Of a stretch of 64,000 nt of DNA, positions 20,761-26,671 are shown in pieces (position 1 is the first letter of the stretch; every line of letters starts with the position of its first letter). The stretch spans positions 1 through 64,000 of the forward strand of contig VFZE01000027.1 of NCBI GenBank assembly GCA_016871315.1. Direction: 5' to 3'. The notes under the pieces are model-generated. The model searched no databases, had not been told where the DNA came from, and saw only the letters and a program-made list of their open reading frames with translations. The DNA is from Acidimicrobiia bacterium. Lineage in GTDB: Bacteria > Acidobacteriota > Terriglobia > Bryobacterales > Bryobacteraceae. The position numbers and the translations under genes were made by a program.

Positions 20761-21066
20761 CTAGATCCAGACCCCTGCCGGATCATCCGTCTCCTTGATC
20801 CTCGCCTTCAGCCGCCCCTTCAAATCCTCCAGCGTTTTCCTGTGCCTGTTTTCCCCCGCCAGGTCCTTCTCCTCATGCGGATACGTCTCCAGTCCGCTCA
20901 AGCAGACCCCCCGGCTTGGCGCACACTGCGAAGTAGTAATTTGTCCATTCGCAAAATTCACCCCCCGCGCCGCCAACCGGTCCAGATTCGGTGTCTGAAT
21001 CTTCGGGTTCCCATTCGCCCCCAGCCCCTGATAATGATGATCGTCGCCAAACAGAAATCTTTTACT
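20761..21066 (-). pseudogene. Sulfatase remnant with internal deletion
   Basis: The frame reads GDDHHYQGLGANGNPKIQTP, then a sulfatase signature SQCAPSRGVCLSG. The reading then jumps within a few residues to a C-terminal type segment (KTLEDLKGRLKARI) and a stop at 20761. Several hundred residues of a normal sulfatase core are absent, and there is no proper start codon or signal peptide of its own. The piece is fused directly to the truncated CsgG-like leader upstream. It lies between metH and the redox operon and is not expected to make an active enzyme. Confidence 0.7.
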
Positions 21067-21178
21067 GCACCGCCGGGTTCTCGAAGTCAAACACCGCCAC
21101 CCGTTTCTTAGCCGGCGGAGCCGATTGGCCAAGCGCAAGCCCGCACGCTAACAAAAGCGAAAGAGAGGTTGATCGCAT
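21062..21178 (-). pseudogene. Truncated CsgG-like lipoprotein leader
   Basis: A 38-residue frame starts at ATG 21178 with a signal peptide (MRSTSLSLLLACGLALGQ) and then KKRVAVFDFENPAVQ. That is the way CsgG/HfaB-like outer-membrane secretion proteins begin after their signal. It stops at TAA 21062, exactly where the sulfatase remnant begins in another frame. Most of the gene has been lost by deletion at this junction. The family assignment rests on a short stretch only. Confidence 0.5.
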
Positions 21179-21230: not shown

Positions 21231-21998
21231 CTACTTATTCCTAAGCCAATCCCAATAGAACCCCAGCTTCGAGTAGCCTTCCCCAACGTTCCCGCTATCG
21301 TTCAGTCCCCAGTAATAATCCACATGCTCCACCTTCACACCGCTCTCCCGCAGAAACTCATTTCCCACCGGCGCAAACCGCGCGAGGAACTTCTCCACCG
21401 TCCCGCCATTCTTCTCAAAGTCTCCCGGGAACCATTTAAAGATTGAGCTCACCTCGGCGCGCTTCTTCGCGGGGAGAAACCGGTTCAAACCGGTATCGGC
21501 CAGCCACGCGCGCGTGTTGTCGTCTATCTGGTCATCCAAGCTTGCCGCCACATACGCCTCGCGCCGAAGCGGCGGACAGGAACGCGCCGCGCACACCAGC
21601 ACGGCGTGCACGCGTGGATCTCCCAGGTCGCGCAGCCGGTTCTCGACATCATCGAGCGACACCTGCTTGCCGTCCACGGTGTGACGTTTGGTGACGAACG
21701 GTTTGTTGGTCTTCCAGATGCTCTTTACCGGGAAATGCCGGAGAATCCAGCGTACGGTGAGCGCGTTGTAGGCGTTGATGGAAGCTGCTTTGCGCTCCAC
21801 CGCACTCATCGCGGCAGGCCACGGTTTGGCCAGAAGCGCCACATAGGCATCCAGTTCCGCCAAGGCTTCGCTTTTCCACTTCCCGTAATCCACGCGGTGC
21901 TGCGGGTTCACATATTTCTTCAGTTGCGCATCCCAACTGGAATGGTCGATATCCGCGGCCAGCATGGTGAAGGCACTGAGCAGGAGAGCCCGGATCAC
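21231..21998 (-). CDS. DUF547 protein, secreted
   Basis: 255 residues from GTG at 21998, which overlaps the stop of the upstream 4Fe-4S protein gene (GTGA). A short signal peptide (MIRALLLSAFTMLAAD) precedes the DUF547 domain. Conserved features are ERKAASINAYNALTVRWIL, the basic strand RHTVDGKQVSLDDVEN and the VCAARSCPPLRREAY block with its cysteine pair. The function of the family is not established. Here it is the last gene of a redox operon, and its conserved CAARSCPP cysteines could exchange disulfides with the redoxin; that is inference. No terminator is visible directly after it. Confidence 0.88.
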   Translation of the reverse strand: MIRALLLSAFTMLAADIDHSSWDAQLKKYVNPQHRVDYGKWKSEALAELDAYVALLAKPWPAAMSAVERKAASINAYNALTVRWILRHFPVKSIWKTNKPFVTKRHTVDGKQVSLDDVENRLRDLGDPRVHAVLVCAARSCPPLRREAYVAASLDDQIDDNTRAWLADTGLNRFLPAKKRAEVSSIFKWFPGDFEKNGGTVEKFLARFAPVGNEFLRESGVKVEHVDYYWGLNDSGNVGEGYSKLGFYWDWLRNK

Positions 21999-23062
21999 GC
22001 GGCCACCTCAATCTGCACCAGCTCCTGCGGATCACGGCGCGTCACGTTCTCCAGCCGTAGCACGCCACGCGGGCAGACCTCGGCGCATATGCCGCAGCCG
22101 ACACAGGAGGCGCGGGTGAAGGAAGTATTGGTTTGCGCGTAGCTTCTCACGTCTATCCCCATTTCACAGTATTTGCTGCAAAGCCCGCAGGAGATGCACA
22201 TGTTCCGCTTCACCGTAATCCGGTAGCGGCCGACCTTTTGCACCAACCCCAGCATCGCCGCCATCGGGCAGAAATAGCGGCACCAGACGCGCGTGCCTCC
22301 GATCGGATACACACCCACGCCGACAATCCCGCTCAGCACGGCTCCCACAATCAGACCATAGGCAGACTGAAACTGGTAGCTCCACCGTGCCAGCTCCGGA
22401 TTCTGCTTGCCCGCACCCCAACTGACAAACAGCAACGCCGTCAGCACGACGGCCACAACGAGCACGGTGTGAATCGCGATCTTCTCAAACCGCCAGGACG
22501 CCATCGATTTCGAGGACAAGTGCCGGAAGGGATCACCCGCCGTATTCGCCAGCCCACCGCATCCGCACACCCAGGAGCAGTACCAGCGCTTTCCAAAAAA
22601 GACGGCCAAGAGTGGCGCCATCACCAGAGCGCCGAAGAAGCTGTAGAGAATGAACGGCAGCGGCATGTGGAAGACCACCGGCGGCGTCAGGTATTCAAAC
22701 TTCAGCGGCCACAGGTAGCTGAAGTAGTACTCCGGCTGGTGGAAGAACTTGAGCAGCAGCGGCACGGAAAAGGCCAACATGACCTGCACGACAATTACGA
22801 CCACGGTGCGGATCACCTGGTAGCGGTTGTGGCGGTACTTGCGGATCACGTACACACCACCGAGGGTGATGGCCAGCGTGTAGAGCAGTCCGTAGAGCGT
22901 CCACTTGTGGCCCAGCCCCAACGCCGCCGCCACCGGGTTCAACCAGTCCGTGAAGTAGAGCACCATATAGAAGCCAAACAACACCGCGCTGAGAATCCAG
23001 GCCGTCAGGCCGCGGTTGGTCAGGTCGTGCTTCAGCCACTCCAGCCGCCCAGGTCCGATCAA
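21995..23062 (-). CDS. Membrane-bound 4Fe-4S protein, NapH/MauN/CcoG-like
   Basis: 355 residues from TTG at 23062, overlapping the stop of the FAD oxidoreductase gene by four bases. Five or more membrane helices carry the paired cytoplasmic motifs YCSWVCGCGG and CRYFCPMAA, typical of the NapH/NosR family. The C-terminus holds two ferredoxin-type clusters, CISCGLCSKYCEMG and CVGCGICAEVCPRG. Proteins of this family pass electrons between quinol or cytoplasmic donors and periplasmic acceptors. Its place between an FAD oxidoreductase and a secreted redoxin suggests a route for reductant across the membrane. Confidence 0.9.
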   Translation of the reverse strand: MIGPGRLEWLKHDLTNRGLTAWILSAVLFGFYMVLYFTDWLNPVAAALGLGHKWTLYGLLYTLAITLGGVYVIRKYRHNRYQVIRTVVVIVVQVMLAFSVPLLLKFFHQPEYYFSYLWPLKFEYLTPPVVFHMPLPFILYSFFGALVMAPLLAVFFGKRWYCSWVCGCGGLANTAGDPFRHLSSKSMASWRFEKIAIHTVLVVAVVLTALLFVSWGAGKQNPELARWSYQFQSAYGLIVGAVLSGIVGVGVYPIGGTRVWCRYFCPMAAMLGLVQKVGRYRITVKRNMCISCGLCSKYCEMGIDVRSYAQTNTSFTRASCVGCGICAEVCPRGVLRLENVTRRDPQELVQIEVAA

Positions 23063-24318
23063 GCCGTTACCCCTTCCAGCTTCAGCCTGCTGAACTCGGC
23101 GTCAAACTGCGCCACATGCAAGTGGGCCAGAACGTAGTCCAGCCCGCGCCGCTCCGCAATCCATTTTTCAAACCAGGCGTGATCCCAGCGCGAGCCCAGC
23201 ATGTTGAAGCCGATCACGGCGCCCTCGTGATGCACAATACGCAAGCTCGCGCACTTGCCGGGAATGCGCCGGTAGAAGGACTGCGCCCCCTCCGGCGCCT
23301 GGTTCACAGCCCCCACCGTCGTGTAGTCCACCTCGAAGAACCGCGAGCTGTTATAGAACAGCGGCGGCCGGTAATCGATCCGGTCGCCCAGCATCGATTT
23401 CGCCGCCATCTCCCCTTGCAGCTTCGCGCTGTACCAGATCTGTTCAATCAGCGGTTTCTCCCCATCCCGCCGGATCTCCGCGCAGTCGCCCGCGGCCCAC
23501 ACATCCTCGAGCGAAGTGCGGAAGTCCGGACTTACCACAACACCTTTCTCCACCCTCGGCGGAGTGGCCACCCCTCGCAGCCACTCCACCGCCGGATGCA
23601 CGCCGACGGCGATGCCGAGAAGCTCGCAGGGATAGCTGCTCCCCGCCTTTGTCTCGACATGGCTGACCCCACCATCGGCGTTGGAATGAAACTCGACTGC
23701 CTCCTCCTGTACACGCAAATCCACGCCGTGGCCGCGAATGTGATCGGCCACCATCTCACCTTCCTCGCGCCCGAACGCGATCGGCCAGTACCAGTCCTCC
23801 AGCACCAGAAACGTCACCTGCATGCCATGATGCACCAGGCACTCCACCAGTTCCACCCCGATCAGCCCGCCGCCGATCACCACCGCACGGCCTCCGGGCC
23901 GGATCGCCTTCTCCACCGCCTGTAGATCCTCGAGCGTCACAAAGTGCACCAGGCCGGACTGGATCCTGTCCAGCCCTTTCCACGGAAACAAATTCGGGCG
24001 CGACCCTGTTGCGATCAGCAGCCGGTCGTAAGCCACCTCACCTTTGGAGCGCAGCCGCAGCCGGCGCGCCGCGCCATCGAGATCCGTCACCCAATCCCGC
24101 ACACGCCGGATCTTTTGCTTCTCATAAACGTTGCGCTCGTAAGGTTCCAGATCCCGCAGCGTCATCCGGTCCATCAGCGCGTACATCAATGCCGTGCGGG
24201 AAAAGAAGTAGTCGCTCTCGCCGCTGATCAGCGTGATCTCCGCCTTCGGCTCCCGCTCCCGCAGCGTGAATGCGGCCGTAACGCCGGCCACCCCATTGCC
24301 GATGATCGCGTAGCGCAT
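23059..24318 (-). CDS. FAD/NAD(P)-dependent pyridine nucleotide-disulfide-type oxidoreductase
   Basis: 419 residues. The FAD-binding motif is at the very N-terminus (YAIIGNGVAGVTAAF). An NAD(P)-binding motif lies mid-protein (AVVIGGGLIGVELVE) and the second FAD motif is VWAAGDCAEI. There is no CXXC redox pair next to the first motif, so it belongs with the nitrite reductase/rubredoxin reductase type rather than thioredoxin reductase. It is cytoplasmic (no signal). It shares one base with the redoxin stop codon upstream and four with the 4Fe-4S gene downstream. It probably feeds NAD(P)H electrons to the membrane iron-sulfur protein. Confidence 0.9.
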   Translation of the reverse strand: MRYAIIGNGVAGVTAAFTLREREPKAEITLISGESDYFFSRTALMYALMDRMTLRDLEPYERNVYEKQKIRRVRDWVTDLDGAARRLRLRSKGEVAYDRLLIATGSRPNLFPWKGLDRIQSGLVHFVTLEDLQAVEKAIRPGGRAVVIGGGLIGVELVECLVHHGMQVTFLVLEDWYWPIAFGREEGEMVADHIRGHGVDLRVQEEAVEFHSNADGGVSHVETKAGSSYPCELLGIAVGVHPAVEWLRGVATPPRVEKGVVVSPDFRTSLEDVWAAGDCAEIRRDGEKPLIEQIWYSAKLQGEMAAKSMLGDRIDYRPPLFYNSSRFFEVDYTTVGAVNQAPEGAQSFYRRIPGKCASLRIVHHEGAVIGFNMLGSRWDHAWFEKWIAERRGLDYVLAHLHVAQFDAEFSRLKLEGVTA

Positions 24319-25442
24319 CAGCGGGCCGGCTTCCTCCGTAGCTCCGCCGGCGCGCGCTGACCGTCATGCCTCTCCGTCGCGAAGCTCCACTCCAGCGGCA
24401 CCGTCACCGGCGCGTAGCAGATCTTGTCGTCGCAGGCCTGGTACCGCAATGAGCCTTCCACCTTCAGCTTGTTGTCCGGGCCCAGCGCCGGACGGATCTC
24501 GCCGCTCTGGCCCACCAGCAACTCGCGCGTCAACCGGAAACGGTTCTCATACACCGGCACCGACTCCTGAATGGCCGCCAGATGCAGCGTCCGCGCCGCC
24601 GGATACTGCGCCGGCCGCGCCAACCACGACGTCGAGTTCGGCATCTTCCAGTCAATCGGAATATAGGAGGACTGCACCCCTGGCGCATAAACATGCATGC
24701 CCGGCTTCAACTCCACCTCCACCGCCAGCGCCACTAGATTCCCCGGCCGCACCGTCGACTCCGTTGCCCCGTAGCGCAGCTTCAGATGCTTCGTCTCCGC
24801 CTCCTGCCACCCATCTACCGTCGATGCCCCGGTTCTCAACAGCACCGTGGAAGCCGTGTACCGCTCCCGGTGATCGTCCTCGAAGAACTTCGATAGCACG
24901 ACACCCTTTTCATTCACGATGTAGGTACCGGGAAACGGTACACCGTACCACTCATGCTCCGGCGGAAAATTGCCGTTCAAAATTCCGAACGAGCGGATCA
25001 TCGCCGACTCCCCGTCGCCCAGCAACGGATAGGTGATGCCCTTGCGGGAGGCGAAATCCTTCATCAGCGCTGGCGGATCGTAGCTGATCGCGACGATACC
25101 CAACCCCTGCGCCGCAAACTTGCCGCGCTGCTGTTCCAGCTCCACGAGCTGGGTCTTGCAGAACGGTCACCAGTCGGCCGAGCGGACAAACAGCAGCACC
25201 AGGCCCTTCGGCCCTTTCAGATTCTCGAAGTTCCGCATCCGCCCGTTCTGATCCGGCAAGGAAAACTTCGGGATGTGTTTTCCCAACGCGGGACCGGTCT
25301 TCATGTTCGCGTCCAGCGCGGGCACCGGATGCAGCTTTGTCCGTGTTTGGGCCGGCGTCTGCGCCGGCACAACCGCCGGAACCAGCAGCGCCGCCGCCCA
25401 AGCGCCAGCGGCCAGAAACACGATCATCCTGCGCCGTAACAT
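24318..25442 (-). CDS. Redoxin/DsbD-N fusion, probable selenoprotein (in-frame UGA at active site)
   Basis: The reading frame runs from ATG 25442 (good ribosome site GAAGGG six bases upstream) to TGA at 24318, with one internal TGA at 25169-25167. Reading that codon as selenocysteine gives 374 residues. A signal peptide is followed by an AhpC/TSA-type thioredoxin fold with LVLLFVRSADW-U-PFCKTQL; U92 and C95 form UXXC where relatives have CPFC. The fold continues normally through AISYDPPALMKDFASRKG. From about 210 there is a DsbD N-terminal-like domain ending YQACDDKICYAPVTVP. The 275 intact residues after the TGA and a hairpin at the right distance argue against a nonsense mutation. It is the first gene of the redox operon. 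Confidence 0.85.
25136..25169 (-). promoter_or_regulatory. Bacterial SECIS-like hairpin directly after the UGA codon
   Basis: After UGA (25169-25167) come 21 bases to the first base of a three-base loop GUG. The loop is closed by a perfect seven-pair stem, CCAGCUC with GAGCUGG (25152-25146 with 25142-25136). Known bacterial SECIS elements have a guanine in the first loop positions and lie roughly 16-37 bases after UGA, and this fits. It lies inside the coding sequence, as in other bacterial selenoprotein mRNAs, where SelB binds it. Confidence 0.7.
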
Positions 25443-25531
25443 GGTTATCCCTTCTACCATAGATTCGATTCCCGAACAGGCCCGGTTACGGTAACTTTTT
25501 CTGAAGAAGAGCCGAATCGGAGGGCAAGAAA

Positions 25532-26671
25532 ATGCGAATGCCGCTCATGGTTTTGCTGTTTGCAGGGGCGCTGGCCGCACAGCTAGCGCCGGGCAACTGG
25601 AAGACCGACCTTTCGAAAAAGTCGATTGACCTCGGGGAGCTGAAATCCGGCGGCCCGCCGAAGGATGGAATCCCGGCGATTGACCGCCCCCGCTTTGACA
25701 CCGTCGATGAAGCCGCCCGCTGGCTGCATCCGCGCGAGCCCATAATGGTCGTGAACCTTCACGGCGAAGCCCGGGCCTACCCTCTTCAGGTGTTGACCTG
25801 GCACGAACTGGTTAACGATCAAATCGGCGATACGCCGCTGCTGGCCAGCTTCTGCCCCCTATGCAACTCCGCGATCGTCTTTGACCGCCGCCTTGACGGA
25901 ACGGTCTACGACTTCGGCGTCTCCGGCATGCTCCGCCATTCCGACATGGTGATGTACGACCGCCAGACCGATTCGCTGTGGCAACAGATCACCGGCGAAG
26001 CCATCGTCGGCGAGTTGACGGGGAAGACGCTCACCATCCTCCCGTCACAGACCGTCTCGTTTGAAACCTTCGCCGCCGGCTATCCGCAAGGCAAAGTGCT
26101 CAATCGCGACACCGGACACATGCGTCCGTACGGCCAGAACCCCTATGAGCGGTACGAGTTTAATCCGCGGCTGGTGGCGCCCATCGGCCGTGTCGAACTT
26201 CCGGCCAACGTGCGGCCGATGGAGCGGCTGGTGACCATCACCATCGGCGACCGTACGCGCGCCTACACGTTTCACTACGTGCGCTCGCGCAAGGTGGTGG
26301 AAGACAGCTTTCAGGACATCGATCTGGTGATCTTCTACGACAAGAACACGCTCTCGGCCCTCGATAGCAAGCAGATCAAGGAGTCACAGTCTGTCGGCAG
26401 CGTCGGAGTCTTCTGCGCACTGGTCGACGGCAACCGGCTGCGCTTCCGTCACCGCAAGGACGGCATCGAGGACAAACAAACCAAAAGCCGCTGGAACGTG
26501 CTCGGGGTAGCCACAGAAGGTCCCCTCAAGGGAAAGCGGCTGAAGCCCGTCGATCACGGCGTCTACTTTGCCTTCGCCTGGCTGGTCTTCCGGCCCGAAA
26601 CGCGTGTCATCGGCGACTCCGGTTTAAGGCCCGGAACGGATCCCTTTTTAAGCGGGCCGCAACCTCAATAA
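25532..26671 (+). CDS. DUF3179 protein, secreted
   Basis: 379 residues. ATG at 25532 follows GGAGG by eight bases. A signal peptide (MRMPLMVLLFAGALAAQ) precedes the DUF3179 domain, which carries GEARAYPLQVLTWHELVND and the characteristic FCPLCNSAIVFDR with its cysteine pair. TDSLWQQITGEAIVG and VFCALVDG follow. Function is unknown; the CPLC pair suggests metal or thiol chemistry. It is divergent from the selenoprotein redoxin with only about 90 bases between starts, so the two transcripts share a control region. Confidence 0.85.
   Translation: MRMPLMVLLFAGALAAQLAPGNWKTDLSKKSIDLGELKSGGPPKDGIPAIDRPRFDTVDEAARWLHPREPIMVVNLHGEARAYPLQVLTWHELVNDQIGDTPLLASFCPLCNSAIVFDRRLDGTVYDFGVSGMLRHSDMVMYDRQTDSLWQQITGEAIVGELTGKTLTILPSQTVSFETFAAGYPQGKVLNRDTGHMRPYGQNPYERYEFNPRLVAPIGRVELPANVRPMERLVTITIGDRTRAYTFHYVRSRKVVEDSFQDIDLVIFYDKNTLSALDSKQIKESQSVGSVGVFCALVDGNRLRFRHRKDGIEDKQTKSRWNVLGVATEGPLKGKRLKPVDHGVYFAFAWLVFRPETRVIGDSGLRPGTDPFLSGPQPQ

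Follow-up and report, generated by a model that had tools for sequence, protein, structure and literature searches.

A predicted selenoprotein joining a redoxin domain to a DsbD_N-like domain in a Bryobacteraceae genome

Selenoproteins in which an AhpC/TSA domain (PF00578) carries a UxxC motif, U denoting selenocysteine (Sec), are catalogued as peroxiredoxin-like (Prx-like) thiol:disulfide oxidoreductases in passages of PMC13188914 and PMC9312934 and named in a passage of PMC1794560. For the Acidobacteria, the relevant passage of the latter lists four selenoproteins of three families in 2006, and that of PMC12013277 reports one acidobacterium tested, with three known selenoprotein genes. Here, we analyze a gene on the reverse strand of a 64,000-nucleotide stretch, referred to as the window, which comprises positions 1 to 64,000 of contig VFZE01000027.1 (assembly GCA_016871315.1, family Bryobacteraceae of the Acidobacteriota). 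The gene is interrupted by an in-frame UGA and is predicted to encode a Prx-like selenoprotein fused to a domain resembling the N-terminal domain of DsbD (nDsbD). While the Prx-like UxxC selenoprotein is a known kind, the fusion may be new.

Like the Prx-like thiol:disulfide oxidoreductases, the protein has an AhpC/TSA domain with Sec in the first position of UxxC; it differs from them in being probably exported and in its fused DsbD_N-like domain with a CxxxxC pair, which the passages concerned in PMC13188914, PMC9312934, and PMC1794560 do not mention. The Redoxin family selenoprotein (PF08534), as outlined in PMC13188914, likewise combines a redoxin-type domain and UxxC and is, in our reading, probably identical with the family that PMC2398784 had earlier named Prx-like 3. 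Unknown_3 is described as possessing three conserved cysteines including a CxxC, whereas the protein studied here has one CxxxxC pair; the two are set apart by description, but may be the same family. TsoB (NF045694), listed in PMC13188914 as a rhodanese/DsbD fusion-like selenoprotein, shares a DsbD-like part by name, but has a rhodanese, two Sec, and a UxxxxU motif, and NF045694 is not among the models matching the window protein. In DsbD and ScsB, whose N-terminal domain (PF11412) corresponds to the rear domain in fold, profile match, and a YQAC...C region aligned with the genome's own DsbD, this domain precedes the membrane domain, whereas here it is fused behind the redoxin. Finally, passages of PMC5403849 and PMC9144841 describe the removal of envelope peroxide in Caulobacter by the route ScsB to TlpA to PprX. 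There, as presumably here, an envelope protein of the peroxiredoxin type is fed by a DsbD-family route, but with three separate proteins, where the window gene would unite Sec and a shuttle-like domain in one chain. No Prx-like or redoxin selenoprotein fused to DsbD_N was found in the searchable literature. The fusion may already be listed under the Redoxin family, as the catalogue was compared by description only.

We conclude that the UGA at 25169-25167 is very probably decoded as Sec, because it replaces Cys, the frame behind it is conserved, a hairpin is tied to it, and the Sec system of the genome is complete. A single reading frame runs from the ATG at 25442 to the stop codon at 24320-24318, itself a UGA, and its sole interruption is the TGA within SADW[U]PFC. 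These coordinates agree with an earlier sequence-only reading of the window, which had also anticipated that a gene caller would split the gene: mechanical calling of open reading frames (ORFs) yields two pieces of 97 and 275 amino acids. The same reading counted 275 intact residues after the UGA. The frame is indeed open, but the number needs correction, as 282 codons lie between the UGA and the terminator, and the figure of 275 applies to the ORF that starts at the next GTG. Given the base composition, the probability that 275 codons remain open behind a stop arising at random is about 6e-4. For this reason, and chiefly because other UGA copies keep both the column and 266 to 316 open codons, the open frame is not taken as chance.

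Homologues were collected by a contig scan, which confirmed 105 places and from which the 80 best were kept, and by a search of 396 sampled genomes of the window's own phylum alone, such that the share obtained says nothing on other phyla. The phylum search gave matches in 57 genomes, with a UGA copy in 44 and a Cys fusion in eight; one genome has both. Forty extra stretches were fetched beyond both searches. The codon column was read only in matches spanning the active site, i.e., at 144 places, which include a few same genes from two collections; L106, the window itself, had been dropped beforehand. At residue 92, the position where the sequence-only reading expected the nucleophilic Cys of redoxins, the 144 places hold TGA (76), TGC (40), or TGT (28) and no other codon, thus neither TAA nor TAG. 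In all 76 TGA copies, window included, 266 to 316 open codons follow, and 75 of them reach the CxxxxC pair near the end. The 51 single-domain homologues, which have short C-termini, all carry Cys.

Decay of the frame in close relatives, named beforehand as an argument for rejection, is not observed. The rate of nonsynonymous change (dN) after the UGA is lower than that of synonymous change (dS) in each of the 13 pairs for which the rates were calculated (11 are close pairs), with dS saturated or nearly so for the window against L136 and against L009 and for L128/L129, and with L147/L148 identical before the UGA. For L021/L023, dN and dS amount to 0.084 and 0.476 after the UGA and to 0.074 and 0.433 before it. 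The window's own genome contains a second UGA copy, L136 (G000:C8:99847-100908), which is 56% identical, and a genome of the same family (G333, locus L107) has the Cys form. Two loci of the contig scan are labelled Gemmatimonadota (L025) and Myxococcota (L038); both labels belong to metagenome-assembled genomes, where mis-binning is possible. A search of plasmid records returned matches of less than 60% identity throughout, none spanning 80% of the query.

Shortly after the UGA, the transcript can form a hairpin resembling the bacterial Sec insertion sequence (bSECIS). The sequence-only reading had placed a seven-pair hairpin with a GUG loop 21 bases downstream; the hairpin holds, but 21 nt is the distance to the start of the loop, while the stem starts at 14 nt. 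According to the legend of Figure 2 in PMC13188914, a bSECIS has a loop of 3-9 nt, a stem of 4-16 bp, and a minimum free energy of -7.5 or lower; further constraints given there are a G among the first two positions of the loop and a UGA-to-loop distance of 16-37 nt. With loop GUG, 7 bp, 21 nt, and -10.0 kcal/mol, the window hairpin agrees with all of these, and the claim that its spacing fits bacterial SECIS elements is borne out. The 40-nt fold at this site has -11.5 kcal/mol. Since folding of the single sequence is not decisive alone (z of -3.1 at 50 nt, -0.6 at 40 nt, and -0.3 at 81 nt), the hairpin was judged by comparative tests.

The published bSECIS model is passed by 66 of 76 UGA fusion genes vs. 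2 of 17 Cys fusion genes, and these two (L019 and L163) are one gene from two collections. At a constant position, all six core pairs are present in 68/74 UGA genes, 1/14 Cys fusions, and 0/51 single-domain Cys genes. Whether the QLVEL motif alone makes the hairpin was assessed by synonymous draws with each gene's own codon usage, after rows with identical first 300 bases had been dropped: an energy of -7.5 kcal/mol or lower is found in 64 of the 74 UGA genes, where 14.0 are expected, and in 1 of the 13 Cys genes, where 0.9 is expected. Among 400 synonymous recodings made of the window gene, about 0.3% attain the energy observed, and the hairpin of its paralogue L136 has the lowest energy found (-13.4 kcal/mol). 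Among 62 distinct sequences, the stem is paired in 93.1% of cells, a share that sliding the partner lowers to at most 41.5%, and 24 double-change cells occur in the stem vs. 6.9 in shuffles.

The machinery for Sec insertion, for which the sequence-only reading had advised a search, is present in full. The window's own genome, 98% complete, contains selB (382 bits), selA (485 bits), selD (353 bits), and a tRNA-Sec with anticodon TCA (UCA) scoring 69.5 bits, its tRNA-Ser scoring 48.4 bits. Its selD (L103) has one in-frame UGA, and an fdhA-like gene (L177), no piece of which reaches the Fdh-alpha cut-off, has a UGA in ARLUHGPTV; we take both to be the usual Sec positions of these genes. Together with the window gene and L136, at least four UGA genes are thus predicted in this genome. 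The selA search covered 46 of the 80 loci, namely every one of the 30 fusion loci and 16 of the 50 with a single domain, and the tRNA-Sec search the 29 genomes of fusion loci. SelA exceeds the cut-off in 19 of 21 UGA-fusion genomes vs. 1 of 8 Cys-fusion genomes (Fisher p 1.7e-4), and in 3 of 15 single-domain Cys genomes searched. The two remaining UGA genomes, G024 with a partial selA of 153 bits and G017 with none, both have a tRNA-Sec of 69-72 bits. If selA above cut-off or a tRNA-Sec of at least 54 bits is counted, a line between tRNA-Sec and tRNA-Ser chosen after viewing the scores, the proportions are 21/21 for UGA vs. 1/8 for Cys genomes; tRNA-Sec by itself lies above 54 bits in 18 of 21 UGA genomes and below it in G006, G021, and G029. 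In L021:6001-10677 and L023:6001-10591, the redoxin gene is followed by tRNA-Sec on the other strand, selA, and selB, and selB is also found near the redoxin gene in L038.

Two other accounts of the interrupted frame have to be weighed. A nonsense mutation or a sequencing error might have turned the locus into a pseudogene, the UGA ending a decayed gene, and the formal interruption and the two called pieces would be as expected. That the same codon, never TAA or TAG, stands in the same column at 76 of 144 places and is followed by long open frames, that dN is below dS after it, and that L136 is a further UGA copy in the same genome make this account very improbable. Equally hard to maintain is another decoding of the UGA, either by a genome-wide change of the code or by SECIS-independent readthrough giving mixed ordinary residues. 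Readthrough would likewise keep the frame open, but the column swaps with Cys codons only, the hairpin accompanies the UGA, and the full Sec system is present; UGA moreover terminates the window gene and two neighbours, which speaks against a changed code.

Several observations weigh against decoding as Sec through this hairpin. In L131, the frame differs towards the end and loses the C-terminal part. Ten of 74 UGA genes, the near relative L009 included, miss -7.5 kcal/mol in a simple hairpin search. In the covariation count, shuffled data give at least as many stem pairs showing a double change (3) and as many pair types (4), and 24 double-change cells likewise arise when the partner is slid by -1. 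In Rfam, no SECIS family reaches its gathering score over the window or an E of 10 over 24900-25400; the listings Ocean-V and snoU82P, both far below their cut-offs, were taken as chance. Corrected for phylogeny, the association of UGA with selA is seen in four of five pairs, with none the other way and one tie in most pairings (p 0.125); for UGA and the hairpin at 6/6 core pairs, eight independent pairs give 5.5 for, 0.0 opposite, and 2.5 ties (median p 0.0625), and at 5/6 core pairs the median p of eight pairs is 0.125. With so few independent pairs available, these tests do not reach significance. The tree, the core-pair counts, and the paired tests omit L114, L133, L163, and L164, whose proteins are identical to L018, L037, L019, and L021, as well as L143, which nearly duplicates L142 and does not differ from it over 153 bases. 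On this quick tree, which has some long branches and from which no direction of change was inferred, nine UGA/Cys changes are needed for 88 rows, and at least eight are forced by supported branches.

The proposal of a redoxin/DsbD-N fusion is confirmed by the read-through protein, which is matched by the Pfam profiles AhpC-TSA, Redoxin (E 4e-16), and DsbD_N; the latter is found in 47 of 49 fusion proteins (E 0.001). Three elements are invariant in 49 of 49 aligned rows: the U/C column, the Cys that closes UxxC, and the CxxxxC near the C-terminus, whose cysteines 337 and 342 correspond to C316 and C321 in the construct starting at residue 22. An AlphaFold2 model from this alignment reached a pLDDT of 93.2 and a pTM of 0.89. 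The front domain matches the folds of BcpB, AhpE, and PrxQ, the best being BcpB (5epf; Z 17.9, rmsd 2.8, 151 residues aligned), and ResA occurs among the sequence matches. For the rear domain modelled alone (pLDDT 94.1), the first 11 rows of the fold search are all DsbD-N or ScsB-N (Z 9.9-11.9; other folds 8.9 or less), led by ScsB-N at 11.9 with several DsbD-N rows within 1; a sequence search of the PDB with this domain alone gave no match at E 1. The single DsbD_TM match in the genome is a full-length DsbD, which has a DsbD_N of its own and in which YQACSDTTC aligns with the similar YQACDDKIC of the fused domain.

From these features we infer a mechanism in export, chemistry, electron donor, and substrate alike, and we regard it as evenly poised between acceptance and doubt. 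This estimate does not extend to the decoding itself, in which the hairpin just downstream of the UGA very probably recruits SelB with Sec-tRNA-Sec and the ribosome makes a single 374-residue protein, probably exported by the signal peptide recognized by eye. Within the envelope, the redoxin domain may attack an oxidized substrate (peroxide, sulfenic acid, or disulfide) through its Sec92, and Cys95 would resolve the product to a Sec-S bond within UxxC. This bond could be reduced by the CxxxxC of the fused nDsbD-like domain, which in turn would be re-reduced by the full-length DsbD of the genome, fed by cytoplasmic thioredoxin; no connection between the gene and dsbD was noticed, none having been looked for. 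Overall, the protein would act as an envelope selenol reductase with a covalently attached electron shuttle.

As to the substrate, two assignments compete with this proposal. The selenoprotein may mainly be a true peroxiredoxin, i.e., a hydroperoxide reductase like Caulobacter PprX, for which the BcpB, AhpE, and PrxQ folds of the front domain argue, as does the ScsB-N fold heading the matches of the rear domain, given the peroxide route through ScsB sketched in PMC5403849. On the other side stands the UPFC pair, which is TlpA/ResA-like; this assignment remains slightly short of an even prospect. The classical catalytic motif of Prx, PxxxT/SxxC, is absent, RSADWU having Ala at position -3 from Sec (by eye); this also counts against the mechanism proposed above, and peroxidase activity is therefore unsure. 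Alternatively, the protein could act not on peroxide but on one particular client in the envelope, as a thiol:disulfide oxidoreductase, e.g., in cytochrome c maturation or in the repair of sulfenic acid or Met-sulfoxide. The UxxC spacing and ResA among the sequence matches favor it, and both the PF00578 domain and UxxC are present, the features under which the relevant passage of PMC13188914 places Prx-like thiol:disulfide oxidoreductases. No neighbour points to a client, however: among ten neighbour groups common to at least three of 32 loci, most of them unidentified, only selB (plus selA) could be tied to the gene, and we consider this assignment plausible, yet not quite probable. Electrons might also be supplied by the downstream FAD oxidoreductase and NapH-like protein instead of DsbD. 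Overlapping start and stop codons suggest that these genes and the selenoprotein gene probably form an operon in this genome. The FAD-NapH pair (21995-24318 here) occurs together in eight genomes of the same family, but in 8/8 of them no redoxin match was found within the 9-9.5 kb fetched around the full pair, and neither gene was matched within the 2.5-6 kb available downstream of the redoxin at the other 30 fusion loci, L009-L038, or beside L136 (each at E 1e-10). A conserved redoxin-FAD-NapH operon as a general feature was thus rejected, pair and redoxin not being co-located in the stretches compared, and this source of electrons appears unlikely.

The features of the locus and its neighbours are collected in Table 1.

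Table 1. Features at the predicted selenoprotein locus (window positions).
Feature	Position	Strand	Basis or remark
Selenoprotein gene, predicted; 374 residues, Sec92	24318..25442	-	Signal peptide, AhpC/TSA redoxin (UxxC), and DsbD_N-like domain
UGA codon, predicted Sec92	25167..25169	-	Frame and homologue column
Cys95 codon, second residue of the UPFC pair	25158..25160	-	Invariant in 49-row alignment
bSECIS-like hairpin CCAGCUC-GUG-GAGCUGG, 7 bp, 3-nt loop	25136..25152	-	In codons of QLVEL and flanks
AGAAGGG, ribosome-site-like, upstream of ATG 25442	25449..25455	-	By eye
Sec-type signal peptide, probable, residues 1-28	25359..25442	-	By eye on sequence
AhpC-TSA (PF00578) domain, residues 54-182	24897..25283	-	Pfam E 1e-26 and fold match
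DsbD_N-like domain (PF11412), residues 231-347	24402..24752	-	Pfam E 7.5e-8, 32.9 bits vs. cut-off 25, and fold
CxxxxC pair Cys337/Cys342 of DsbD_N-like domain	24417..24434	-	Invariant in 49 rows
NAD(P)/FAD oxidoreductase gene	23059..24318	-	ATG shares one base with selenoprotein stop
NapH-like membrane ferredoxin-type protein	21995..23062	-	4-bp overlap with preceding gene
DUF547 protein	21231..21998	-	4-bp overlap with preceding gene
DUF3179 gene, divergent, adjoins selenoprotein gene	25532-26671		Pfam E 1.3e-97

We tentatively consider it possible, though somewhat less than probable, that these genes constitute a widespread uncatalogued selenoenzyme family, here mainly of Acidobacteriota. 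Its members would be envelope selenol reductases with their own nDsbD shuttle, wiring Sec into the DsbD pathway; the hairpin would dictate QLVEL, a constraint relaxed in the Cys forms, and in L021 and L023 the gene lies beside tRNA-Sec, selA, and selB as if it were a main reason for retaining the Sec trait. In NCBIfam, the model set by which NCBI names bacterial proteins, nine models match at E 0.001 but none above its curated cut-off, selenoprotein models included: PRK09437.1 is best with 48 of 140 bits, SelL_rel_redox reaches 42 of 120, and WAxxUGC_long 29 of 300. Because no model scores above cut-off, such genes are likely split or called pseudogenes. With at least eight changes, the family furthermore comprises both Sec and Cys forms, some having the hairpin and others lacking it, as a natural series for comparison. 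The benefit of Sec in an oxidizing compartment, and the shaping of a protein by an RNA signal in its coding region, are therefore testable in it.

Further observations concern single members of the family and the surroundings of the gene. At L019:6214-6261, a gene of the Cys form has kept its SECIS-like hairpin intact in a genome that gave no selA match, and whose best tRNA-Sec match (50.6 bits) exceeds the Rfam cut-off of 47 but scores no higher than tRNA-Ser matches can; this may be a recent Sec-to-Cys change, the hairpin being a possible fossil. L111 shows the hairpin of a Cys form in a damaged version. A separate clade of 17 rows (L038, L140-L142, and L144-L156), all UGA, has RSAVWU in place of RSADWU. 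Among the extra stretches, L168-L171, L173, and L175 gave no active-site match; what they share with the query is chiefly the DsbD_N-like part, which in some lies within an ORF of about 200-260 amino acids, and they are possible stand-alone versions of that domain. At 20761-21138 of the window, a 125-residue ORF resembles, by eye, the remnant of a shortened sulfatase.

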